64,000 bases of DNA, from the NCBI GenBank assembly GCA_947499155.1, contig CANMND010000003.1, forward strand, positions 1 to 64,000. The letters are read 5' to 3'. Numbering within the stretch: the stretch's first letter is position 1; every line of letters starts with the position of its first letter. The stretch is from an uncultured Sphingomonadales bacterium (GTDB lineage: Bacteria; Pseudomonadota; Alphaproteobacteria; Sphingomonadales; Rhodothalassiaceae). Below, one piece after another: positions 8,611 to 52,632 of this stretch. The position numbers were made by a program, and so were the translations under genes. The notes below the pieces were generated by a model, which saw only the letters and a program-made list of their open reading frames with translations, had not been told where the DNA came from and ran no database searches.

Positions 8611-9456
8611 TCAGGCACCTGTGGCCGCCAGCAGGCGTTCTTCAGCATCAGACGGCAGATACATACCGCGCTGCCCTCTGACCGGGCGGAATCTGTCCGT
8701 GATACCCAGTACTGTTTCTGCTGCACCCAAAAACAGGGTGCCATCACGCGGCATGGCATCGCGCAGGCGTTCCATGACATGGGTTTTTGTCGCTTGGTCA
8801 AAATAAATCAGCACGTTTCGACAGTAGATAACGTCAAACTTCCCTAAACCAGCAAAACTGTCCAGCAGGTTGAACTCACGAAAGGTGACCATCTTGCGGA
8901 TATCGTCCGACAGGCGCCAGACATCGCCATCCTGGGTGAAATACTTCAGCAAATCATGAATCGGAAGGCCTCTTTGTACCTCAAACTGGGAATAGACCCC
9001 TTCTCGTGCACGATTGAGAACCGGACGGGCAATATCGGTGCCGATAATCTCAATGGTCCAATCACGCCACAAGGCTTCCTGCTGTTTCAAGATGAGAGCA
9101 AGAGAATATGGCTCTTGTCCCGTTGAACAGGCAGCGCACCAGATCCGTATTTTTTTCGTCATTTCCCGCCGTTTGCGCAAAGAAGGCAAAACCTGTTCGC
9201 GAAACAGGTCAAAGGGCGTGCGATCACGATAGAAAAAGGACTCATTGGTGGTCATGGCTTCAGTGACCTCACGCATCAGCTGTTCCGATGCCGACCGACG
9301 CAATTCACGGATCAGGTCGTCAAGGCTGTCCATTCCAGATCGCCGTGCAACAGGTGTCAGGCGTGTCTCAAGCAGATAAATTTTATCTGCATTGAGCATC
9401 AGCCCAGATCGTCGCTTCAGCAGAGAGCTGAGAAAATCGAAATCCTGAGGTTTCAT
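8611..9456 (-). CDS. cheR: Chemotaxis protein methyltransferase CheR
   Basis: A 281-residue SAM-dependent enzyme that methylates glutamates on chemoreceptors. It has an N-terminal helical domain (1-70) and a catalytic domain with the SAM-binding motif IWCAACSTGQEPYSLAL and the NPPY-equivalent DVIYCRNVLIYFD. The start codon overlaps the cheB stop (ATGA), indicating translational coupling and the last position in the che operon. No adjacent chemoreceptor or cheD is present. Confidence 0.95.
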   Translation of the reverse strand: MKPQDFDFLSSLLKRRSGLMLNADKIYLLETRLTPVARRSGMDSLDDLIRELRRSASEQLMREVTEAMTTNESFFYRDRTPFDLFREQVLPSLRKRREMTKKIRIWCAACSTGQEPYSLALILKQQEALWRDWTIEIIGTDIARPVLNRAREGVYSQFEVQRGLPIHDLLKYFTQDGDVWRLSDDIRKMVTFREFNLLDSFAGLGKFDVIYCRNVLIYFDQATKTHVMERLRDAMPRDGTLFLGAAETVLGITDRFRPVRGQRGMYLPSDAEERLLAATGA

Positions 9457-10728: not shown

Positions 10729-11094
10729 TTACATCAAGCCAACCTGGCAGAATTTGGCTTCGATAATCTCACGATCAAATGGCTTCATTATATATTCGTT
10801 TGCGCCCGCATCCATGGCTGCACGGATATGGGTCATATCGTTTTCTGTAGTGCAGAATACGACGATCGGCTGGTGCAGGTCTGCGCGCGCACGCAAAGCA
10901 CGCAGAAAATCAATCCCGTTCATAACTGGCATATTCCAATCCAGAAGAACCACGTCCGGCGAAAGGCGTTCGCACGCGGCAAGAGCGTCCTTGCCGTCAA
11001 CAGCCTCTTCAATCTGAAAGTCCAGCTCTTCCAGAATCCGTCTTGCGACGCGCCTTATGACCTTGGAATCATCTACGACAAGACAGGATTTCAT
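10729..11094 (-). CDS. cheY: Single-domain response regulator, CheY-like
   Basis: A 121-residue stand-alone receiver that starts MKSCLVVDDSKVIRRVARRI, with phosphoacceptor about D52 (VVLLDWNMPVMNG), Thr in FCTTEND and Lys in YIMKPFDREI. It probably carries the signal from CheA to the flagellar switch. The frame is open 34 codons further upstream, but the start at 11094 matches the receiver fold and has a G-rich Shine-Dalgarno-like tract (GGGGTGTGG). It sits between cheW and cheB. Confidence 0.9.
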   Translation of the reverse strand: MKSCLVVDDSKVIRRVARRILEELDFQIEEAVDGKDALAACERLSPDVVLLDWNMPVMNGIDFLRALRARADLHQPIVVFCTTENDMTHIRAAMDAGANEYIMKPFDREIIEAKFCQVGLM

Positions 11095-24800: not shown

Positions 24801-27047
24801 TCAGCGTTCGTCTGGCGCAACTTCCAAAGTCCCCTTTTCCAAAAATACGTACAACTTTTCCTCTTCCAGGGGACGGCAAACTTCATAGCCCTGTACCCTG
24901 TCACATTTCTCTTCTCGTAGCATGGCCAGGGTCTCCCGATCTTCGACCCCTTCAGCCACCACAACCAGACCAATCTCGTGGGCGAGTTGAATAGTGGAGC
25001 GTATAATGGCCCTGTCTTTCGAGCTGTGGCGCATTCGCGAGACGAAAAGCCTGTCTATTTTGACTTCGTCGGCCGGGAACTCACTGAGATAGGACATGGA
25101 CGAAAAGCCGGTTCCGAAATCATCAATCGATACTTTCACACCCAGGCGCCGCAATCGTGTCAATGTGAACTGCACCATTTCAGGATCTTCAGTGAACGCT
25201 GTTTCCGTCAGTTCAACCATAAACTGGCTGGCGGGGCACTTGTTCCTGTCAAGGCAGGAGGCAATCTTGTCATAGATATCCGCACCTTCAAGATCATGTA
25301 CTGACAGATTGACGCTAACCCCTACAGGACGTCCTTCTGATGCCATGCGTGCGCACAGTGATGCCGCATTATTCAGTACAAAGTCGGTCACTTTCCCGAT
25401 CAGGCCTGCCTGTTCAATAAGTGGAATGAATTTTCCAGGAGGCACGGATCCCAATATGGGATGTTGCCAGCGTATCAAGGATTCCAGGCCAACAATCGCA
25501 CCACTCGCCACACTCATTTGTGGCTGATAAACAACCGACAGGCCGTCCACCTCCCCTTGACGAAACGCTCTGACAATACGTGTGTCGATCGGATCTGGCT
25601 CCATTGTACTATTATAAACCAACCACTTCCGATGGCGGACAGTGCATTGTGACAAAGCGGTTTCGGCAAAATGAGAAAAATCATCCAAACGCTGTGCGCC
25701 CACAGGAATCCTGGCAATTCCGCACATGACATCTGAGACCACATCCATAGACGGGACTTCGACTGGATCAAGCAGGGTGTAATGGCCAAGCCTGAATATC
25801 GGGCGTTCTGACAACACACCAAAATAGCCGCGACCGAAATAGCCGATCGCGCGATAATTCTGCTCTCGCAAACGATCAGCGAAAATTGATACCAGGGCGG
25901 CTACAGCCGAGACACCATGGATCTGTACGGTGCTTTCAAAATCACTCAGGCAAATAATAGCATATTTCCAGCGTTTCCGGTCTGTGTCTGCCCCCCGAAG
26001 AATATTTTCTAATTGCCGCGAAAACAGATCAACTCCCGGCATTCCCGTTCTGGAATCATGATAGGCAATCAGTGACTCAGTTATTGGGCCAAAATCTGCA
26101 CCCTCCCGGGCCGCGGCTCTAACCACATGATAATACCACCAAAAAGCACCCGCGGCGGCAAACAAGAGCAAGCCTGCACTCAGCGCAATATATGGTGCAA
26201 CCAATGCTATTCTATAACCAAAACTGGCAGAGTGGGGTTCCAGCTCATCTTTCCACTGTTCAAAAACAGCGTCATAATCCCCATCGTTCAGAAGTTTTTC
26301 CAGAGATTGGTTCACCCACTCAGCCAGCTCTGTCCGGTCTTTTCTGGTAGCAAATGCGTAGCCTTCTGACCAAAAGGGCATGCCGTAGCGCTCGATCGCC
26401 AACTTGTGTGTGCTGATGAGTCCATTGGCAACAGGAACGGCAATGACCGCCACATCCGCATCGCCGTTTATCACCGCGTGCAATGTTTCCAGAGTTCCGT
26501 CCATACCAAGCACTTTGACATCAGAGTACAATGTCGCAAGCCGTTCTTGTGCAAATGACTGATCTTCAACGGCAACACGCAGTCCCGACAGATTATCCAG
26601 GCCAGTCAGACCATGCAGGCCGGGTTTTGCAAAAATCGCATGTTTGAAAAAATAAAAAGGCTTAGAAAAAGTATAGCGCGTCTCCCGGTCGGGAGAGACA
26701 AACATCGGCAGGATATCGATGCTCCCGTCATCCAGTGCCGAGACAAGCTCTGCCCATGTACCGGTAACATGAACCAAGCGCCTTTCACCCTGTTTTGCCA
26801 AGGCTCTCTCAAGATCAACAATGAATCCTTTGGCTTCGCCTGACTGTGTGACCCACTCAAAGGGACTATAATTACTGTCACCACCAAATCTCACTAAATC
26901 GACACGTTCGATGGTTGACTTGGTCTTTGCACCATCAGGGTCAGTCAGGGGTTCTGCACCCAGATGGTTTGCCAGCGCGATCACCGGCATAACTAAAAGC
27001 AATACAGCGCAGAGAGTTACAGATCGGATAACCCACACAAAATGCAT
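24801..27047 (-). CDS. Periplasmic-binding-domain sensor with degenerate GGDEF and EAL domains
   Basis: A 748-residue membrane signalling protein. It has an N-terminal signal/anchor (about 8-26), a periplasmic family-3 solute-binding domain (about 45-270, with FGGDSNYSPFEWV and GFIVDLERAL), a transmembrane helix (about 280-305), a GGDEF-like domain (about 325-460) and an EAL domain (about 480-735). The GGDEF signature is replaced by GRGYF, so diguanylate cyclase activity is unlikely. EAL residues are mostly kept: ESLIRW (EAL reads ESL), ELTETAF, DDFGTG, KIDRLF and AEGVED. It is therefore a likely c-di-GMP phosphodiesterase controlled by a small amino-acid-like ligand. Convergent with moaE. 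Confidence 0.9.
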   Translation of the reverse strand: MHFVWVIRSVTLCAVLLLVMPVIALANHLGAEPLTDPDGAKTKSTIERVDLVRFGGDSNYSPFEWVTQSGEAKGFIVDLERALAKQGERRLVHVTGTWAELVSALDDGSIDILPMFVSPDRETRYTFSKPFYFFKHAIFAKPGLHGLTGLDNLSGLRVAVEDQSFAQERLATLYSDVKVLGMDGTLETLHAVINGDADVAVIAVPVANGLISTHKLAIERYGMPFWSEGYAFATRKDRTELAEWVNQSLEKLLNDGDYDAVFEQWKDELEPHSASFGYRIALVAPYIALSAGLLLFAAAGAFWWYYHVVRAAAREGADFGPITESLIAYHDSRTGMPGVDLFSRQLENILRGADTDRKRWKYAIICLSDFESTVQIHGVSAVAALVSIFADRLREQNYRAIGYFGRGYFGVLSERPIFRLGHYTLLDPVEVPSMDVVSDVMCGIARIPVGAQRLDDFSHFAETALSQCTVRHRKWLVYNSTMEPDPIDTRIVRAFRQGEVDGLSVVYQPQMSVASGAIVGLESLIRWQHPILGSVPPGKFIPLIEQAGLIGKVTDFVLNNAASLCARMASEGRPVGVSVNLSVHDLEGADIYDKIASCLDRNKCPASQFMVELTETAFTEDPEMVQFTLTRLRRLGVKVSIDDFGTGFSSMSYLSEFPADEVKIDRLFVSRMRHSSKDRAIIRSTIQLAHEIGLVVVAEGVEDRETLAMLREEKCDRVQGYEVCRPLEEEKLYVFLEKGTLEVAPDER

Positions 27048-42134: not shown

Positions 42135-43508
42135 TCATGGCTTTAGTCGTTCTTTCAAACGTGAGTTGCACCGTGCTGCCGCCATTGTAAGGGCGGGGAG
42201 ATGTCGGGCTATGCCATAGCCTCTGATAGGCTTTGCAGTTTCTGGTGTCACCGCAAGCTGATCGAATTGTCCTCCACTAAGCGCGTCGGCCATTTGCTTT
42301 CCCAATGCTGTATTGATAGCGAGCCCGCGACCATTACAAGCCTGAATAGCAAAACCACCTTGTCCAAGAGAATGAATTTTTGGCAACAAGGAAGGATTGA
42401 TCCAGGCAGTCCCCTCCCACAAATATTCAATGGGGTACTCTGCAAGAGATGGAAAATACCGTGATATCCGCCGACTGGCTTCTTCCAGCAGAACCTGCCG
42501 CGAACGGTTGGTCAAAAAGGCCGGAAAGGCTGAAACTAAACGCCCGGATTCATCGACCCTTGCAGTAAACAAATATGGCTGCCGGTCAGTGAATGTAATC
42601 CCCTCTGGCACAATGCTTGCCCTTAGATCAGGTGTAAGCGGGGCTGTTGCAAACTCATAAACCCGCATCGGCAAGGCTGTTTCACGCAATGCCGGGTGAA
42701 GATGAATATTGCCACCATTGGCCGCCAGGACAATCTGGCGGGCCCTGACAACACCGTTGGTGCTCACCAGACGCCAGTCTGTGCCATCATGAGACACAGA
42801 GCGAACAGGACTGTCGCAGTAAATGTCAGCGCCAGCAGACTGGCTCGCCCGTGCAAGACCGCGGGCGTAGGCAAGCGGATTCAGTCCACCACCATCAGCA
42901 AACGTCAGGCTGCCATGATAGAAGTCCGTGCCCAGACTCCTGCTCGTCATTTCGGAATCCAGATACTGCACATCATATCCGTGCACGCGCCATTCTTCGG
43001 CTTTATTTTGTAAAAATTCCGCAAATTTTGTTGTATGGGCCGGACAATAAAATCCACTATTTACAGCCCCACAGTCTATGCCGTGACGCTCCACAATATC
43101 AAAGCACAGGCGTGCTGACCCACCGACAAGTTTGATCAAGCGCAAACCTGCTTCTTCGCCAAACTGCTTGATAATTGTTTGCGGTGTTTGCGAAATAAAG
43201 TCGGGCGCAAGCAATCCCCCGCTAGCCCCTGTAGCCCCATCGCCGGGCTTGCCGGCTTCCAATACAACGACAGAAATCCCAGCTTCCGCAAGATGCAGGG
43301 CTGTAGACAGACCTGCGACACCTGCCCCCACCACAGCGACTTGTGCATCGATGTCGGCGATCAATGAAGAACAGTCGACACTCTCACGCACCGTTTTGCT
43401 CCACAATGACGGATAGTCGCCTTGATATCGGGGCTGAGCAGGTGAGAAGTCGCCCCCCTCATCATCGCGAACGGTGGCAACAGGTGCAAGAGACTGACGG
43501 GAACTCAT
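42135..43508 (-). CDS. FAD-dependent amino-acid/amine oxidoreductase (DAO family)
   Basis: A 457-residue flavoprotein with the FAD-binding motif AQVAVVGAGVAGLSTALHLA at about residues 54-75 and the D-amino-acid-oxidase core (GATGASGGLLAPDFI, LPKIHSLGQGGFAIQACNGR). It resembles gamma-glutamylputrescine oxidase and related secondary-amine oxidases (YPSLWSKTVRES N-terminus). Substrate is probably an amino acid or amine. No signal peptide; cytoplasmic. The start 7 bp after the marR stop suggests co-translation, although the Shine-Dalgarno is weak. Confidence 0.85.
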   Translation of the reverse strand: MSSRQSLAPVATVRDDEGGDFSPAQPRYQGDYPSLWSKTVRESVDCSSLIADIDAQVAVVGAGVAGLSTALHLAEAGISVVVLEAGKPGDGATGASGGLLAPDFISQTPQTIIKQFGEEAGLRLIKLVGGSARLCFDIVERHGIDCGAVNSGFYCPAHTTKFAEFLQNKAEEWRVHGYDVQYLDSEMTSRSLGTDFYHGSLTFADGGGLNPLAYARGLARASQSAGADIYCDSPVRSVSHDGTDWRLVSTNGVVRARQIVLAANGGNIHLHPALRETALPMRVYEFATAPLTPDLRASIVPEGITFTDRQPYLFTARVDESGRLVSAFPAFLTNRSRQVLLEEASRRISRYFPSLAEYPIEYLWEGTAWINPSLLPKIHSLGQGGFAIQACNGRGLAINTALGKQMADALSGGQFDQLAVTPETAKPIRGYGIARHLPALTMAAARCNSRLKERLKP

Positions 43509-43515
43509 AAGTATA

Positions 43516-43989
43516 TTACTCGATAGGAAGTCGACTGAGATTGGACACGATTGTCTGCATAACGCGGATAAACTGGCGAATTTCTGTTTCACGAAGGCCG
43601 TCCAGAGCACGGGCAAGCTGGCGACTGGCCAAAAGAGTCACACGGTCTATCAGATCGGAGCCCTTTTCCGTCAAGCTGACATCAACCGTCCGGCTGTCGC
43701 CTTCATTAACAGAAGTCTCAACCCACCCCTCATTCCGCATTCTTGTAACCGCGCGGCTGACAGTTGACCGCTTGATCAGTGAATAGTGTGATAGCTCTTT
43801 TATATTGATCGGATTGCCCTGCTTCAGGACGGTCAAAATCCGGTAAACCGTCCGATCAAGGCCAAATTTCCCCACTGCCTTGTCCAGGTCTTCATGGTAC
43901 TTAAAGTCTGCATGTGCCATCAGGTAAAATGGCGATGAGAACAAATCAAAGGCATGTTCCGCAGGATTAAGGTCGTCTGGAAGTGTCAT
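43516..43989 (-). CDS. MarR-family transcriptional regulator
   Basis: A 157-residue winged-helix regulator: LTVLKQGNPINIKELSHYSL, recognition helix KRSTVSRAVTRMRNEGWVE and wing NEGDSRTVDVSLTEKG. MarR proteins usually repress adjacent catabolic genes until they bind a small ligand. It lies between the BASS transporter (58 bp) and the FAD oxidase (7 bp), so it probably controls that operon. Confidence 0.93.
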   Translation of the reverse strand: MTLPDDLNPAEHAFDLFSSPFYLMAHADFKYHEDLDKAVGKFGLDRTVYRILTVLKQGNPINIKELSHYSLIKRSTVSRAVTRMRNEGWVETSVNEGDSRTVDVSLTEKGSDLIDRVTLLASRQLARALDGLRETEIRQFIRVMQTIVSNLSRLPIE

Positions 43990-44047: not shown

Positions 44048-44935
44048 TTATACAGAAGAGCGGCAGATTTTTCCGGCTCCCTCAGAGTCCTTGCCTCTAA
44101 ACGCCAGGACAAACAAGATACAAAGCATCAAGGCAATCGGAGTATTCATGATCATCGGAAGGGACATCTCACGACTGCCGATGATTGTGACAGCTATATA
44201 AATCGCTGTGCCCTCCTGACGGATCATGTGCTCGATACAGATCGCCTTTGTCTGCGCCATCGTAAGCCCGAACTTTCGGGTTAACATAAACGCGACGAAC
44301 AAGGCTATCAGGTTCATGCCAAGTGTTATCAGCACAAGGTCACCCAGATGAGCTTTTAAAACTGCAATCTGATCTGCAAGGATAAATCCAAAGGCTATCA
44401 CCAGAACACCGGTTGCGATGAGCTTCATCGGCCCCTTTAACCGGAGCGCTATGGGTTCCTTGTACGTCCTTACCAACAAACCAAGTGTGGCAGGGATGAG
44501 CGTAATGCTGAAAACTTTCCAGACAAAGCCCAGTAACGGCACATCAATGCTGGTTTCCATGCCCAGGAAATGCAGGACAGCGAAATGGGCATAAAACGGG
44601 ATTACCAAAATATAGATCATGCTGATGACAATGGTGAGCGACAAGGACAAGGCGAGATCACCCTTGACAAAGTCGGTCATCAGATTTGAAAGCATACCGC
44701 CCGGACAGGTCGCCAGAAGGATAAAGCCAACGGCAAGTTCTGGTGACGGAGCAAAAAGATAGGCCATCACAAGCCCGATAATCGGTGGCACAATCAGCAT
44801 GCTTGGCACGCCGACATAAAGGGCCCGCCGATCCGTGAACACCCGCTTAAAATCACCGACCGTCAGACTAAGCCCGATTGAGAACATGATGAACCAGAGC
44901 GAGCCTGGTAAAAATATTGTATCTATAAGTTCCAT
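44048..44935 (-). CDS. Bile acid:sodium symporter (BASS) family transporter
   Basis: A 295-residue, ten-helix inner-membrane protein with BASS features: ATCPGGMLSNLMTDFVKGD (the conserved sodium-site crossover region with GG and N) and PPIIGLVMAYLF. Bacterial members carry organic anions such as bile acids, pantoate or keto acids with sodium. The neighbouring MarR and FAD oxidase suggest uptake of an organic acid or its degradation product. Start context (ATGGAACTTAT) follows GGGAGGG. Confidence 0.9.
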   Translation of the reverse strand: MELIDTIFLPGSLWFIMFSIGLSLTVGDFKRVFTDRRALYVGVPSMLIVPPIIGLVMAYLFAPSPELAVGFILLATCPGGMLSNLMTDFVKGDLALSLSLTIVISMIYILVIPFYAHFAVLHFLGMETSIDVPLLGFVWKVFSITLIPATLGLLVRTYKEPIALRLKGPMKLIATGVLVIAFGFILADQIAVLKAHLGDLVLITLGMNLIALFVAFMLTRKFGLTMAQTKAICIEHMIRQEGTAIYIAVTIIGSREMSLPMIMNTPIALMLCILFVLAFRGKDSEGAGKICRSSV

Positions 44936-45023: not shown

Positions 45024-45509
45024 TCACACCTGTTCAATCACAAGGGTCCCCGCGCCCTTGCTGCGCCAGACTTTGCAGGCCTCTTGCGCAGCCGCAAGAT
45101 CTTCTTTCACCATGCGAGCAGCGACATTCCCCCGCAGCCAGCCAAATGGCATGAGCAGACGGGCACCGGGTCCATAAAACAAACCTATGTCAAAGAAATT
45201 CCCTGGTGGCAGGCCCTTGAGACTACGGTCAGCCGCAAAAGCGAGCACAATATCACCAGCGTCAGGAAAACTTGTCGCATTCTCTTCAGGCAAGACCATA
45301 TCCCTGACAGACTGGGGCAAGGCACTTGCTGTCAAGGGGCAAGAAATTTCCGGGCCTGTCCACATGGCGTGGATAGCATCAAACTGAGGCGTTTCACCCG
45401 CCAGCGTCCATAAAAAACGCGCCGATTCCGGAGCATTGTCCTCCAGAAGCTCGCAGCGAACCGAGAGGCCCGACTCTATTTCCCTGAAACGAATATGTCG
45501 CACTGTCAC
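45024..45509 (-). CDS. DUF3830 family cyclophilin-like protein
   Basis: A 161-residue protein matching DUF3830: LLEDNAPESARFLWTLAGE, IHAMWTGPEISCP, SFPDAGDIVLAFA and FDIGLFYGPGARLLMPFGW. The fold is cyclophilin-like and its members are often encoded with hydantoin, creatinine or amino-acid amide catabolic genes; function unknown. It starts the DUF3830-BASS-MarR-oxidase unit and has a long AT-rich upstream region with the shared 12-mer ATTCACATGAAT. Confidence 0.8.
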   Translation of the reverse strand: MTVRHIRFREIESGLSVRCELLEDNAPESARFLWTLAGETPQFDAIHAMWTGPEISCPLTASALPQSVRDMVLPEENATSFPDAGDIVLAFAADRSLKGLPPGNFFDIGLFYGPGARLLMPFGWLRGNVAARMVKEDLAAAQEACKVWRSKGAGTLVIEQV

Positions 45510-45670
45510 CCTTTCCTTCTACGGGGCTTTTGGAAAGCCGTACAGACAAAGCATCTTGTGGATGGACTTCATCTGATTGCATCAAAAAGCCAACCCCGCA
45601 GTTTACATTTTACCCATATGTCCCAGCATGACACGGGCCGTCATGTTAAATTTGCGCAATAATAATATCC

Positions 45671-45698
45671 CCAAATTCACATGAATGTAAATACATAA
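45671..45698. promoter_or_regulatory. Shared AT-rich element, copy A (upstream of DUF3830 operon)
   Basis: CCAA followed by ATTCACATGAAT (45675-45686) and GTAAATACATA. It is closely similar to the element at 49737 and lies about 165 bp upstream of the DUF3830 start. ATTCA-CA-TGAAT is itself a dyad. Confidence 0.55.
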
Positions 45699-45749
45699 AG
45701 CACCATATAGACGGAAGCTCTCACCATATGCGACTAGTTTTCCACACCC

Positions 45750-47432
45750 TTATTTGACAGGTTCAATGCTTTCGAGGTCTGAAAAATACTCCAGCTTTTG
45801 CAGTAGAATGGGGACATTCCCATTCAGCCAGACATAATCATGGAAAGCCTGAAGGTTAAACGCGTCCCCTTCTTTCATCCGTGCTTCCGACATGAATTCG
45901 ATCATCTGGAGCTTGCCGATCTGATAGCTTAGGGCCTGACCCGGCGTCGCTGAAAAGAAGACGGCTTCGTGAAGGGCGGTAGCCTTGTCCATGGGTACCT
46001 TGGATTCCAAAACGTCCGCCGCCTCTTCCAGGCTGTAAATTCCAAGGGCAAGCTTTACGTCCACATCAACACGCAAGGCGCGCAGACGGGAGAAATTATA
46101 AATAATCTCACGGCTTTTCGGCGCATCTTCAAACAAACCAGCCTGAAGCATCATTTCTTCTGCATAAAAGCCTGTGCCTTCATTGGCCCCTGAATCATAG
46201 TAATGGCGGCGCAATGGGTTTGGATGCGCCCAACCAAGCACCAACTGCATATAATGCCCTGGCACCCCTTCATGGACAATGACAGGGCCCGGGTCGAGGG
46301 TGAAGGTGCTGTTGAAATAGCCCATATGATCAGACGGATCCGGGATATAAACAGTGGCGTTTTCATCAAGGCGGTTGACAGAGGTAAGATCGAATGTGCG
46401 CCCGAGCCAGCCGATGGGCTTCAGATATGCGGGAAAGGCCTGTGCAGTGTAATGGCCAACCCAGTCCTCGATCGTCAAAAAGCCTCTGTCTTTCAAAAAG
46501 CTCCGCACTTCCAGTTCCCGCTTTTTCACAGAAGCGATGACCTGGTTGATATCCATCTTCATCTCAAGAGCAGGTACATCCCTGTTACGCTGTTTTTCCA
46601 GCGCTTCAAAGGCAACGATTCTCGCCCACTCCTGTTCACCCATGCGGGCGACCTCTTCCGGGGAGTAGGGGTAAAGGGCAACTTCATTAAGGAAGAATGC
46701 GTAGCTGTCTCGCCCCACAGCCGTTTCCTCGGACAAGTCTTTTAATGCAGCCTTTTGGAGGAATTGCTCATAAGCGGCAAAGGCCGATATGGTTTTTTCC
46801 ACTGCTGCCTTCAACCTTCTGGCCTCGCGACCTTTGGCATAGGGTTCAAGGCCCGCAAGCATGCCCCGCAAACTGTCAGGGATACCCAACAGCACAGGGA
46901 AGGTTGCCCGGACAAAGGGACCACGCATGTCCGTCAGATTCTCTTCGGCCGCAGCAAGCGTGGCTGGCGCCCGTTCAAGCAACCGGATCACATGATGAAT
47001 GCGGTCGCTACCTACAGGCGGTGGCGGCAACAGGACCTCAAAAATCGGCCCAAGAGCCTGCTGGACATAAAAAGTCGGCTGCCTTTTCCATGCGGCTATA
47101 TGGTCCAGTTCCCAGCGAACCCGGGCAAGAGCCGACCCCACGAGGCGGTAGTCCACTTCCTTTGAAGCTGTTCTCTCCTCTCCGGAAAGGGCCTGCCAGC
47201 GGGCTTCAAATTCAGCGAGTGTCTTGTACCGCCCAGCGACGGCCTTTTGCGACCAGTCAGGTAAAAAACCATCCGGACGCACGATACGTGGAATATCATC
47301 TCCTGTATCGGGTTGCGTAACAGCTCGCCAGGCCCAGAAATCCGCACCCAATTCCTGCACATCGGCTTGTGCACCATAAGACGTCACAAAAAGAAGCGCT
47401 GACAGCAAAACAGTGGCAAGGTTAGTCCGCAT
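45750..47432 (-). CDS. Secreted DUF885 putative metalloprotein/peptidase
   Basis: A 560-residue exported protein with a signal peptide at 1-23 (LATVLLSALLFVTSYGAQA). It has the DUF885 core with the zinc-type motif H-E-x3-G-H in VIVHEGVPGHYMQ and the downstream Glu-containing GANEGTGFYAEEMML. DUF885 proteins are thought to be metallo-carboxypeptidases or dipeptidases of the gluzincin type. It starts 10 bp after the S9 peptidase stop and is in the same operon; AAGGGTG precedes the ATG at 47432. Confidence 0.88.
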   Translation of the reverse strand: MRTNLATVLLSALLFVTSYGAQADVQELGADFWAWRAVTQPDTGDDIPRIVRPDGFLPDWSQKAVAGRYKTLAEFEARWQALSGEERTASKEVDYRLVGSALARVRWELDHIAAWKRQPTFYVQQALGPIFEVLLPPPPVGSDRIHHVIRLLERAPATLAAAEENLTDMRGPFVRATFPVLLGIPDSLRGMLAGLEPYAKGREARRLKAAVEKTISAFAAYEQFLQKAALKDLSEETAVGRDSYAFFLNEVALYPYSPEEVARMGEQEWARIVAFEALEKQRNRDVPALEMKMDINQVIASVKKRELEVRSFLKDRGFLTIEDWVGHYTAQAFPAYLKPIGWLGRTFDLTSVNRLDENATVYIPDPSDHMGYFNSTFTLDPGPVIVHEGVPGHYMQLVLGWAHPNPLRRHYYDSGANEGTGFYAEEMMLQAGLFEDAPKSREIIYNFSRLRALRVDVDVKLALGIYSLEEAADVLESKVPMDKATALHEAVFFSATPGQALSYQIGKLQMIEFMSEARMKEGDAFNLQAFHDYVWLNGNVPILLQKLEYFSDLESIEPVK

Positions 47433-47442
47433 CAAAACACCC

Positions 47443-49587
47443 TTATTTTGCATCAGGCTTCAGGTAACGATCAAAGAAATCAAGCATTTTGCGAAAGGCA
47501 AAACGGGTCTGGGTGAGATTGTCCACATCCCAGGCATGAGAACTGCCGGGAATGGTCACAAGCTCAAACGTCTTTTCGTTTTCCATAAGGCGATCGACCA
47601 GATCCAGCGTATCGCCATAAAGAACCACCACATCGGCATTGCCGTGAATGATCATCAGGTTGTCTTCCAGACCTGCCGCATGATGCTGGGCTGCCTGCAT
47701 CTTGTAGCGTTCATAGTTGTCATGGACCGTATGACCAAGCGTCCACATCTGACCGGGATAGGCATGCCACACATTGGATGCAGGCGCGCCTGCAACACCG
47801 GCGGCATATAGGCCGGGCTTGTTGAACAATGACATCAGTGTCATCAGTCCGCCATAGCTTGAGCCCCAAATGCCGACACGCTCAGGATCGACGATGCCTT
47901 GTGAGACCAGATACCTGACGCCACTTTCCAGGTCATCGGTATCAATCCCGCCATAGCCTGACAAAAGCCGCTGACGGAAGGCTTTCCCCTGCCCCCAGCT
48001 TCCCGCCATGTTCGGGTTAAGAATGATGTAGCCGTGGCTGGCCAGAACCTGATCCAGACCCCAGGTCGGATGCGACGTGCGGCCGCCCCACTGGGCGCGC
48101 ACGGCATTGGAATAAACCGAACCGACAATCAGTGGATATTTTTTGCTGCTGTCATAGTCCGGCGGCAGGATCATGCGAGCAACGACGTCTGCGCCATCGA
48201 CATGGCTTTTGAAATTCACATAGCGAACATCCGACCATGTATAGTCATTAAACTCGGCCAACGGTGACTTCGTAACCTGACGCGCAGTAATGCTGCCCTG
48301 AAGCTGCAATAGATAAAGGTCAGGTGGCGTCACGTCGTTCGACGCAATATCAACTGCATGAGCAAAGTCAGGCGCAAAATAAGGTGTGTGGGTGCCAGGC
48401 ATTTGACCAACGGTCGTGATCGCCCCACCCTTCACAGATACCTTGTAAAGCTGGCGCTCACCCGGATGATCGCGATTGGCAGTGAAATAGATCTGCTTGT
48501 TTTTGGCGTCCACATTGAAATTGGCAACTTCCCATGAGCCTTTGGTGATGGCCTTTGGAGCCGCGTTCGGACGGGTCTTGTGATAAAGATGATACCAGCC
48601 CTCATGGTCGCTTACGATAATGAGGCCATTATCATCCGGTGCCCAGGCAGATGACCATGCAGGGTCAAGCTGACGCGGTTCTTTTTCCTCATAAAAAACA
48701 GTGGCCGTGCCGGTCTTGGCATCATAGGTGCGGATCGTCCGCACTTCCAAAAGGAAAGTGCTGCTGTCCACCATCAGGCTTTTACTATTGGCAGACCATT
48801 CAAAGCTTCTGATCGGGTTTTCAGCCGGATGCTCCACCCACAAGACGTCTCCGCCAGCAGCATCAACAAACCCTACACGATAGCGCCCGGTATGATCGCC
48901 GGGGAAAGCACGGCTGAGCTTGATTGAGCGGTTCTTGCCACCAGAATAATAGGGAACTTCACGGAACGGAACGCTGGTCATGTCGGCCTGGATAAACGCG
49001 ATACGCGCGCCATCGGGCGACCAGACGTGACGGGCGATATACTGACGCTCGAAAGGAAGTGAGACAAGCCTGGTTGAACTCTTGCTTGCCAGCGAATAGG
49101 CCCACAGATCACCATCGCGCACAAAGCTGAAAGCGCGACCATCAGGAGACGCGACAAGCTGTCTTTCAGCGCTGGGCGTCTCCGTCAGGCGCGTAGTCGT
49201 ACCATCGCCTGCCCGGATATAAAGGTCACCGCGAAGAGCATAGGCTACAGCACCATCGGCAAGCCAAACGAACTCTGTGATCCCCTTGGCATTTTCCACA
49301 TAACGGGCGTCACCAGAAAGATTAGTCAGGCGTGTAACTGAATTCCCATCAAGGTCATAAAGCCACAAATCGCGAAAATCATACCCCTCGTCATTCCACA
49401 AATATGCAACGGCGCGACCATCGGCTCGCCAGGAGGGACTGGTCGGCGCTGTCCCGATAATATGGGGCAAAGAATAAAAGCGCGAAATCTCAGCCTCAGC
49501 CTGCGCCCTTGTCGTTTCAGCAAAAGCTGGCGCACTGACTAAGACAAACAAGGCCGCCAACAGGCCCATGACATAATTCCGCATCAT
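47443..49587 (-). CDS. Secreted S9-family peptidase (DPP IV/prolyl-oligopeptidase type)
   Basis: A 714-residue serine peptidase with a signal peptide (GLLAALFVLVSAPAFA), an N-terminal beta-propeller (about 30-440, repeated SPDG/DG blades such as HVWSPDGARIAF) and a C-terminal alpha/beta-hydrolase. The triad is Ser in GIWGSSYGGLMTL, Asp in IIHGNADVVVLYG and His in IPGSSHAWDVDN. It cleaves short peptides, often after proline, in the periplasm. The start is ambiguous by one codon (ATGATG after AGGGGAG). It heads a two-gene unit with the DUF885 gene. Confidence 0.95.
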   Translation of the reverse strand: MMRNYVMGLLAALFVLVSAPAFAETTRAQAEAEISRFYSLPHIIGTAPTSPSWRADGRAVAYLWNDEGYDFRDLWLYDLDGNSVTRLTNLSGDARYVENAKGITEFVWLADGAVAYALRGDLYIRAGDGTTTRLTETPSAERQLVASPDGRAFSFVRDGDLWAYSLASKSSTRLVSLPFERQYIARHVWSPDGARIAFIQADMTSVPFREVPYYSGGKNRSIKLSRAFPGDHTGRYRVGFVDAAGGDVLWVEHPAENPIRSFEWSANSKSLMVDSSTFLLEVRTIRTYDAKTGTATVFYEEKEPRQLDPAWSSAWAPDDNGLIIVSDHEGWYHLYHKTRPNAAPKAITKGSWEVANFNVDAKNKQIYFTANRDHPGERQLYKVSVKGGAITTVGQMPGTHTPYFAPDFAHAVDIASNDVTPPDLYLLQLQGSITARQVTKSPLAEFNDYTWSDVRYVNFKSHVDGADVVARMILPPDYDSSKKYPLIVGSVYSNAVRAQWGGRTSHPTWGLDQVLASHGYIILNPNMAGSWGQGKAFRQRLLSGYGGIDTDDLESGVRYLVSQGIVDPERVGIWGSSYGGLMTLMSLFNKPGLYAAGVAGAPASNVWHAYPGQMWTLGHTVHDNYERYKMQAAQHHAAGLEDNLMIIHGNADVVVLYGDTLDLVDRLMENEKTFELVTIPGSSHAWDVDNLTQTRFAFRKMLDFFDRYLKPDAK

Positions 49588-49736
49588 ATACTCCCCTAAG
49601 ACATTCTACTTGTCTTGATTATGCTGCCCAAAGCCGTGATCTGTGGCCACAAGAGACCGCAGCCTTCATCACCAATCAGGCGTGAGTTCTTGCACAATTT
49701 TCTGATGAATTAACACAACTGCGGATTCATGTCTAT

Positions 49737-49764
49737 CCATATTCACATGAATTTACATCCATAT
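49737..49764. promoter_or_regulatory. Shared AT-rich element, copy B (upstream of S9-DUF885 operon)
   Basis: CCAT followed by ATTCACATGAAT (49741-49752) and TTACATCCATA. It matches copy A at 45671 over about 28 bp with four differences and lies about 155 bp upstream of the S9 start, nearly the same distance as copy A to its gene. Confidence 0.55.
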
Positions 49765-50540: not shown

Positions 50541-52244
50541 TTATTTCGCCTCGACGACATCCGAAAGCGGCGTCCGCTCCCAAAAGGTATCCACTTCATC
50601 GGACAGGCCGGTCAGCTCGTAGCGCAGTAAGGCCATTGGCAGGCGCCCAACATTCATGAACCAGTCATGGAATTCACGCAGGTTGAAGTCGTCACCCAAC
50701 TGCTGCTTGCGGTCTGCCAGAATTCTCATCATCTGGAAGCTGCCGACGGTATAGCCAAGGCCATAGCCAGGCGGACGGCGGCGGTAGATTTCCGCATCAA
50801 CCCGCGCCACATCATCATCGAGATAAGGCGTCCATTTTTTCCAGTATTCAGCGACCTCCAGAGAATCCTTTTCGTTTTTCTGCATCCAGACATCACCGAT
50901 GGTCCGAACAGCGCGGAAGATTCCGAAGATATGTATCAGTTCCCGTGCACGTGGCCGGTCATAGGTTTCATAAAAGCCAAGCTGCAGCGGCATTTCTTCC
51001 CAATAAAGCCCCCAACCTTCGCCACGAATGGCATCGCGAAGATACTTGCGAATGGGGTGCGTATTGCGGGCTGAAAGCTGGCCGTCAAACCGGTGTCCGG
51101 GAATAACTGCATGCCAGTGGTCAGGATTGGGATCGCGGTAAAGGATCTGCTCCCAGAAGTTGGGCCCGCCAGCGCGTTCCAGCCACAGGGCGTTAAAGCC
51201 CATTTCCTGCCAGTCACTTGGAACATAGTCCGGGACGGTGATCAGATCTTCTTCCTCAAGAAACTCACGGACTTCCGCATCCATTTTTGCCATGCGGTCG
51301 TAATATTCTTCTTTTGTAGCTGGCAACTCCAATTCAGGCAGATTGCGGTTGCGATGACGCTCTAGGCCGTAAAAGCCGTACAAGCGCTCCAGCTCTCTTT
51401 GGGCCAGAACCTCGATATCGTGCGCGGTGTATGGCAGATAATGCACATTCCGCAAAAACCAGTTCAGATGCTCTTCACCGACTCCAGCTTCACCAGTCAT
51501 TTTATGGCGATTGTTTTTGAGCCACTTGTCAAAGCCCCTGAGTGCCTTCAGCGCTTTGTTGATGTCCGGCACGAGATCCGGCTGATCCTTTTTGGCGCGG
51601 CCCAACAGATCTTCATACCAGCCGATGATCCCGGCGGGCGGTACTGCACGCCATGGGTGGCGCAGGTTTACACCATCTGTGTAGGAAAGGTTGTGGATGG
51701 CGAAATCTGCAAAATCCCCGGCCACATCATTCAAAGCCTTTTTCGCACCATCCAGATAAGAGGGTATGGCTGCCAGACGTTTGCGAACATCATCAGAAAC
51801 GGCCGGGTCAAGCGGTACCTCGGAAAAAGCGATTTTCATGAGAGGGTCAAGATAAAAGCCCGGATCACGATCCCAGGGGCGGGAAATGGTCAGGGAGAAG
51901 TCCTGCGCATCCATCTCCGCCCTGATTGCCAGATAGTCCACCTGCTGGTGGCGGTCCCAATTGACCACTGCCATATCAGCAAGCTGGTTTTGGAAGCCCT
52001 TAAGGCGTGCCTTATGGCCATCCATGGCTTTTTTATTGTAGGCTACAGGCCCAACAACAGGGCGCAACAGAGCTGTTTCTTCCCGCCAGGTCCTGAATGA
52101 ATCATATAAAGTCACAAGATCCTGATAACTGCCTTTACCGTTGGGAACCGCTCCCTTCGGTGGGCTGGCAATGGCTTGTGTACCAAGCCCAGCGCACAGC
52201 AGCAGTAAAAATATGTGATATAAAGCTGTTCGGAATTGTCGCAT
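50541..52244 (-). CDS. Secreted DUF885 protein with altered metal motif
   Basis: A 567-residue protein with a signal peptide (MRQFRTALYHIFLLLLCAGL...) and DUF885 architecture (LNWFLRNVHYLPYTAHDIE, RELERLYGFYGLERHRNR, IRGEGWGLYWEEMPLQ, GYTVGSFQMMRI). The family motif H-E-x3-G-H reads HAVIPGH here: both histidines stay but the catalytic glutamate is alanine. The downstream Glu in GEGWGLYWEEM remains. It may be an inactive or binding paralogue. AAGGGG precedes the ATG at 52244. Divergent from another DUF885 gene. Confidence 0.88.
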   Translation of the reverse strand: MRQFRTALYHIFLLLLCAGLGTQAIASPPKGAVPNGKGSYQDLVTLYDSFRTWREETALLRPVVGPVAYNKKAMDGHKARLKGFQNQLADMAVVNWDRHQQVDYLAIRAEMDAQDFSLTISRPWDRDPGFYLDPLMKIAFSEVPLDPAVSDDVRKRLAAIPSYLDGAKKALNDVAGDFADFAIHNLSYTDGVNLRHPWRAVPPAGIIGWYEDLLGRAKKDQPDLVPDINKALKALRGFDKWLKNNRHKMTGEAGVGEEHLNWFLRNVHYLPYTAHDIEVLAQRELERLYGFYGLERHRNRNLPELELPATKEEYYDRMAKMDAEVREFLEEEDLITVPDYVPSDWQEMGFNALWLERAGGPNFWEQILYRDPNPDHWHAVIPGHRFDGQLSARNTHPIRKYLRDAIRGEGWGLYWEEMPLQLGFYETYDRPRARELIHIFGIFRAVRTIGDVWMQKNEKDSLEVAEYWKKWTPYLDDDVARVDAEIYRRRPPGYGLGYTVGSFQMMRILADRKQQLGDDFNLREFHDWFMNVGRLPMALLRYELTGLSDEVDTFWERTPLSDVVEAK

Positions 52245-52632
52245 TAACCATGCCCCTTGTTGGTCGTCAGCCAACGATTTGTAGCTGACCTCTGGTTCCG
52301 CTCGATGTTCACTGCCTTATTCTGGGAACAGCACCCGTACGCCTCTGCACGAGAATTGCCCTTGTTGGCTTGTGATATTATTTAATATAGCTAATATCCC
52401 GTGATTATGAATATATCAAGCAGAGAAATTCCATTTCACGATAGGAAAATAACAGTCCGGTTACTGGCTATGTGGCAATCGAAGGGGCGACGAGCCTCAT
52501 AATAACGAGCTTTTAGGACAGCCTGTCCTCATCTGGTATCGGCCCCCGATCTGAAGCCAACGCTTTGTGTGAAGCTGGAATGACTGCCTGGTAAAAAAGA
52601 TGGATCGACGACAGGTCCGATGGAGCCATTTG
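52245..52632. promoter_or_regulatory. Divergent promoter region between two DUF885 genes
   Basis: 388 bp, AT-rich in the middle. It contains an inverted repeat GATATTA-N11-TAATATC at 52374-52398, approximately midway between the start codons. No gene was found. Confidence 0.55.
52374..52398. promoter_or_regulatory. Operator-like dyad GATATTA-N11-TAATATC
   Basis: Perfect 7-base arms 11 bases apart, containing TTA-N11-TAA, which fits the T-N11-A rule for LysR regulators; a MarR or TetR site is also possible. Its central position suggests joint control of both divergent DUF885 operons. Confidence 0.45.

Follow-up and report, generated by a model that had tools for sequence, protein, structure and literature searches.

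Two palindromic elements in a peptidase island of a Rhodothalassiaceae bacterium as probable operators of its local MarR-family regulator

MarR proteins are dimers, usually repressors, which are released on ligand binding, and MarR and SlyA of E. coli are the general models of palindromic operators and autoregulation. The subject here is a MarR-family protein (43516..43989, minus strand) encoded in a peptidase island of an uncultured Sphingomonadales bacterium (Rhodothalassiaceae; contig CANMND010000003.1, the 64,000 nucleotides analyzed being called the window), together with two near-identical elements located upstream of two gene rows of this island. The closest solved sequence to the profile of its orthologues is IacR of Pseudomonas putida (PDB 7KUA, E 3e-33), and IadR/MarR_73 of Variovorax (PDB 7KFO) was found at E 3e-20. 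PMC9613470 presents IacR and IadR/MarR_73 as auxin-responsive MarR repressors and assigns to MarR_73 a 24-bp site upstream of catabolic genes, with release by ligand.

The island resembles the IacR and IadR systems in the MarR fold and in the position of the regulator gene within a catabolic locus. The auxin regulators bind indole-3-acetate and are encoded beside genes for its catabolism; the neighbors of the island MarR, as named by Pfam, are peptidases, an FAD-dependent oxidoreductase (DAO), a transporter of the SBF (bile acid:sodium symporter) family and a DUF3830 protein. HpaR and BilQ, the catabolic MarR regulators of NCBIfam, belong to the same family and, by their model names, control local catabolic gene sets; the island MarR is a member of neither, with 36.7 and 39.2 bits against equivalog cut-offs of 121.2 and 125. 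With E. coli MarR and SlyA it shares the winged helix, a palindromic site and the autoregulation proposed here, whereas the sequence is distant (PDB 1jgs, E 8e-9) and the target genes are different.

Comparative evidence indicates that the two elements are very probably operators of the local MarR protein, which would control an S9-DUF885 row and a DUF3830-SBF-MarR-DAO row, its own gene included. The palindrome is rare, and it recurs before equivalent genes in genomes with an orthologous regulator. In detail, element 1 is CCAAATTCACATGAATGTAAATACATA (45671-45697, plus strand) and element 2 is CCATATTCACATGAATTTACATCCATA (49737-49763, plus strand), identical at 23 of 27 positions. Both contain the palindrome core ATTCACATGAAT (ATTCAC|ATGAAT), a putative operator, which is spared by their four differences, and both carry the conserved CCAWA flank (CCATA in element 2). 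The genes behind them are on the minus strand: element 1 is upstream of DUF3830-SBF-MarR-DAO and element 2 of S9-DUF885. The preliminary description of this DNA had the positions and the four differences right and the length, given as 28 bp, one too high; base 28 already differs, and the similarity stops there. Its distances of about 165 and 155 bp agree well with the gaps found, that is, 161 bp from element 1 to the first possible DUF3830 start (GTG, 45509) and 149 bp from element 2 to the first possible S9 start (ATG, 49587). Element 1 sits within the 240 bp that separate the DUF885 stop (45750) from the DUF3830 start.

With up to three mismatches allowed, the joint consensus of the elements is matched twice in the window and never in 100 dinucleotide shuffles. 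ATTCANNTGAAT is present three times in the whole genome (2.81 Mb, 25 contigs), two of these places being elements 1 and 2. Scatter over the genome, named beforehand as an observation that would speak against a shared regulator, was looked for and not found, as ATTCAYRTGAAT is restricted there to the two elements. The same pattern is absent from six genomes belonging to this genus or family (one 64% and one 89% complete). The relaxed form WWTCAYRTGAWW is found at 15 places in the own genome and at 2 to 15 in these six genomes, and a loose pattern search of the genome was uninformative, with 70 forward against 76 reverse matches.

In a scan of the species-genome collection, MarR relatives of 42-59% identity were found at 26 loci. 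When the window proteins were mapped on the relatives' loci, MarR orthologues were found alongside S9, DUF885, DUF3830, SBF and DAO genes. For instance, L047 has the order TonB receptor-S9-DUF885-amidohydrolase-DUF3830-SBF-MarR-DAO, all in one direction; L048 ends within SBF. In sphingomonads the MarR gene is set apart, close to M24, aminotransferase and amidohydrolase genes, and in L052 neither S9 nor DUF885 was found in its neighborhood. DUF3830 occurs in 10 of 246 genomes of the order, own genome included. In seven of the nine others (G064, G094, G198, G202, G209, G212, and G213), the contig with DUF3830 also encodes a MarR relative of 42-59% identity, G064, G213 and G094 being taken as the same records as L065, L070 and L047 and thus not independent of the 26 loci; the remaining two (G085 and G100) have MarR relatives of 28% only. 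DUF3830 has no match in the six genomes from the own genus and family, whose MarR relatives do not exceed 33%.

An alignment of seven sites gives the consensus CCAWAWTCACRYGAWW, in which CCA, A, TCAC and GA do not vary. A search of 33 whole genomes with this strict consensus gave 10 matches, of which nine fall at the MarR-linked gene set and one inside another gene. The first 11 genomes contain seven of them, all at MarR loci (two in the own genome, G000, one in G094, three in G248 and one in G251), a count that is weakened by the consensus having been built from these same seven sites. None is found in the six genomes without a close orthologue (G001-G006), and the reversed pattern has no match in the same 11 genomes. 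Among 22 further genomes there are three matches, against one for the reversed pattern. Two of the three are new sites, used in no training, in the genomes of L068 and L072, with a TonB-S9-DUF885-DUF3830-SBF row on one side and a divergent DUF885 gene on the other.

When a matrix made from the two window elements was run over the 330 bp upstream of marR in 23 loci (L050-L072), the best site reached a shuffle p of at most 0.025 in 9 of the 23, each time at -148 to -158. The pattern AATWCAYRTGWATT, without mismatches, occurs five times in 21 genomes: once each before marR in three Blastomonas and Sphingomonas ursincola (G257-G260), and once in G248, elsewhere than before marR. After iteration on 27 sequences, the matrix gave 109 matches of at least 12 bits, compared with a mean of 17.6 (sd 13.2, max 88) for 100 column-permuted matrices, over which it has the advantage of being fitted to the same 27 sequences. 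The sites in 15 loci and the window precede aminotransferase, M24, marR, amidohydrolase/TPR, TonB, SBF, DUF3830 and S9 genes and a few others.

Two models trained on other sequences also lead back to the elements. The matrix trained on 26 other loci, with no window sequence and with its two seeds first spotted through a window-derived matrix, places 49738 first in the window (20.2 bits) and 45672 second (16.0 bits). A de novo palindromic search, in which window data were not used, was made on 21 non-redundant regions out of 28 marR upstream regions. Its motif, ATAATCACGCGATTAT, has a total of 326 bits compared with 206-216 in five letter-shuffled sets, and it reaches at least 13.7 bits in 15 of the 21 regions. 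Its top four among 63,985 window positions are 49739 (19.1 bits), 52393 (15.4), 45673 (14.8) and 45648 (14.1); all of them fall in the peptidase island, with element 2 first and element 1 third.

Sites outside the training sets were found as well. The closest MarR orthologue belongs to the row TonB-S9-DUF885-amidohydrolase-DUF3830-SBF-MarR-DAO, headed by a TonB receptor (Plug domain), and the untrained site ATAATCATGTGATTAT (22.0 bits) lies some 115 bp upstream of the receptor's first ATG, the sole place above 11 bits in 2.75 kb upstream of the row. In L117, from another family, a site at 8695, which was not in the de novo set, is 42 bp before the part matching DUF3830, and a site at 10953, which was in that set, stands before the part matching S9, next to marR. 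These positions parallel the window; both sites lie inside the longest possible open reading frames (ORFs), so the true starts are uncertain.

The assignment of the MarR family is based on the winged-helix domain, with PF12802 at 43.5 bits (cut-off 27) and PF01047 at 40.8 bits (cut-off 24.6), and on the orthologues and their alignment. In the recognition-helix region, K73, R74, T76, S78 and R79 are invariant in all 15 aligned orthologues, in line with the shared TCAC..GA operator core. The preliminary description had suggested a common regulator, perhaps this MarR, which the comparative evidence favors, and had placed its gene between the elements, which is incorrect: marR lies on the downstream side of both and belongs to the row that element 1 precedes. 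Among 61 plasmid records with MarR relatives none reaches 60% identity, the best row being 33%.

Several results weigh against this assignment. G247 (Algimonas, MarR 55% identical), whose contig ends before DUF3830, is without a strict-consensus match. One match, in G085, falls within a DegT-family aminotransferase ORF and looks like chance. Of the 22 further genomes, 19 are without a match, sphingomonads mostly having variant palindromes, so most sphingomonads are missed by the strict form. With the 26-locus matrix, 11 of 60 shuffled windows contain a place reaching 16.0 bits, so it is the coincidence of place, not the score, that counts; likewise, 23 of 2000 column-permuted de novo motifs also rank both elements in the top four. 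Score alone is therefore not decisive. The de novo motif stays below 10 bits in 6 of the 21 marR upstream regions (L052, L055, L068, L072, L118, and L119). In four of these the locus does contain a site, before SBF in L052 and at places other than the marR upstream region in L055, L068 and L072. The exceptions are L118, where 20 kb hold nothing above 11 bits, and L119, whose sites are weak, one of them scoring 16.9 bits with another matrix. Element 2 is overlapped by no promoter match. Furthermore, another 28-nt pair, 82% alike, exists within the same 16 kb. The earlier statement that the repeat is too long for chance thus overrates length as evidence; a chance repeat is rejected nevertheless, since palindrome, rarity and recurrence beside an orthologous regulator in other genera make the repeat non-random. 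Finally, the own genome encodes one distant MarR paralogue (25% identity).

This additional MarR-like protein, and a palindrome that could suit other dimeric families, are the points in favor of an improbable alternative, namely that the elements are operators of another dimeric regulator encoded elsewhere (e.g., a TetR-family protein or the paralogue) and controlling the same island. However, the sites accompany the island MarR orthologue across genera, even at L052, with no S9 or DUF885 gene found nearby, and the strict form is absent in the six same-genus or same-family genomes that are without a close orthologue.

A promoter role for an alternative sigma factor, which the preliminary description had also considered, is far less probable. 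Two similar elements at a similar distance upstream of gene rows would agree with such a role; against it, the core has only two copies in the genome. An asymmetric two-box promoter with constant distance and orientation was looked for; the core is instead symmetric, the relatives differ in how far from the genes and in which orientation the sites stand, and the sites track the MarR orthologue, so that the sigma reading is unsupported. In addition, copies 12 bp apart fit stacked dimers better: pairs with this spacing are common in relatives, in 7 of 9 close pairs over 28 loci (permuted controls mean 0.03, n=30), which suggests stacked MarR dimers. Exact 12-bp palindrome pairs are seen at L067:1721, L071:9480, L117:8683 and others, in several loci before aminotransferase genes. 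A recent functionless duplication of non-coding DNA, which two copies 4 kb apart in one genome might recall, is just as hard to credit, because the similarity ends after 27 bp, the four differences keep the palindrome, and L117 of another family has sites near both S9 and DUF3830.

With the elements read as MarR operators, the CCAWA flank belongs to the consensus, which accounts for the likeness of the window copies outside the palindrome on this flank. For the likeness on the other flank (KTAMATMCATA), the consensus gives no explanation. There, AATTTACAT of element 2 also begins the second of the two 12-bp-spaced palindromes in L055, a suggestion of a second dimer site inside the 27 bp, yet the window has only 4.6 bits at that place.

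A sigma-70-like match (TTTACA-18-TATTAT, 10 of 12; 45662..45691, minus strand; three matches in the stretch vs. 0.8 expected from shuffles) overlaps element 1 and fits repression by occlusion. A candidate second, weaker palindrome, AAATTTGCGCAATAAT (45648..45663), is 25 bp from element 1; it has 14.1 bits and rank 4 with the de novo motif, and it is outside the 12 best of the 26-locus matrix. Between divergent DUF885 genes lies AATATCCCGTGATTAT (52393..52408; rank 2 with the de novo motif and 5 with the 26-locus matrix), a candidate third operator of the island, and a further weak palindrome of the same type is found at 52206-52223, inside the start of one of these genes.

The genes of the island were named by Pfam, with S9, DUF885, DUF3830, SBF, DAO, M14 and glyoxalase families represented. 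All those of the two rows are on the minus strand. Behind element 2, the S9 peptidase (47443..49587; DPPIV_N and Peptidase_S9) is first and overlaps the second, DUF885, gene (45750..47453). Behind element 1 the order is DUF3830 (45024..45509), SBF (44048..44935) and MarR, all in one direction and separated by 88 and 58 bp. The DAO ORF (42135..43616), taken from its first start codon, overlaps marR, and its true start is probably later. The nearest NCBIfam model to DAO is L-pipecolate oxidase, far below cut-off (235 of 600 bits).

A few other observations were made in the same searches. The full-element pattern with up to three mismatches has one further genome match, AATATTCACATAAATGTGAATGTAAATAC (C2:287556-287578, L003:1501-1523; 3 mismatches, 13.1 bits), which was not counted as a site as its symmetry and spacing differ from the elements; it is about 167 bp before a 144-aa ORF that looks membrane-bound by eye and has no Pfam match at 1e-5. 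Outside the window, TGTTTCACGTGAAACA has three exact copies in 7 kb (G000 C3:402754, 404803 and 409725; L140:1753, 3802 and 8724), beside gidA, gidB, mnmE and rho; from the parS consensus, we take them to be parS centromere sites near the origin and not part of the regulon. The M24 peptidase of L051, used as query, has two relatives of 32-35% in the own genome, on another contig. At 24801-27047 of the window, a protein with SBP_bac_3 (extracellular solute-binding) and EAL domains is a candidate ligand-sensing cyclic-di-GMP enzyme.

In comparative sequence, a palindromic site precedes the target genes and also the regulator's own row, element 1 standing before the row with marR. We infer binding, repression, autoregulation, operon structure and a ligand. 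A MarR dimer would bind the palindrome before S9-DUF885 and before DUF3830-SBF-MarR-DAO, and the shared operator would couple two operons with the synthesis of MarR itself. The protein most likely represses both operons until a small molecule releases it, a mode of repression and ligand release also described in PMC9613470. The releasing molecule is probably related to amino or imino acids and produced or imported by proteins of the island, a guess drawn from the neighboring peptidases and amino-acid enzymes and from the L-pipecolate oxidase model nearest to DAO, below cut-off as it is. The kind of circuit is ordinary, that is, a typical autoregulated catabolic circuit.

A wider reading is put forward only tentatively. 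The sites may belong to a so far undescribed MarR regulon of several alphaproteobacterial families, for the uptake and breakdown of imino-acid-containing (proline-like) peptides, with one operator type released by an imino or keto acid. Its possible members would be the TonB receptor, S9, M24 and DUF885 peptidase-like proteins, the amidohydrolase, the SBF transporter, DUF3830, the pipecolate-oxidase-like DAO and the aminotransferase. Among the titles and abstract openings listed in the literature searches, that of the regulon collection PMC5343134 included, none describes this regulon, and no paper came up for DUF3830 or for DUF885 combined with Sphingomonas.

With this assignment, look-alike stretches become a testable regulator-operator pair. 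The poorly understood DUF3830 and DUF885 proteins are tied to one putatively co-regulated peptide and amino-acid gene set in sphingomonad-related bacteria, and the ligand of this MarR would reveal what the whole gene set degrades.

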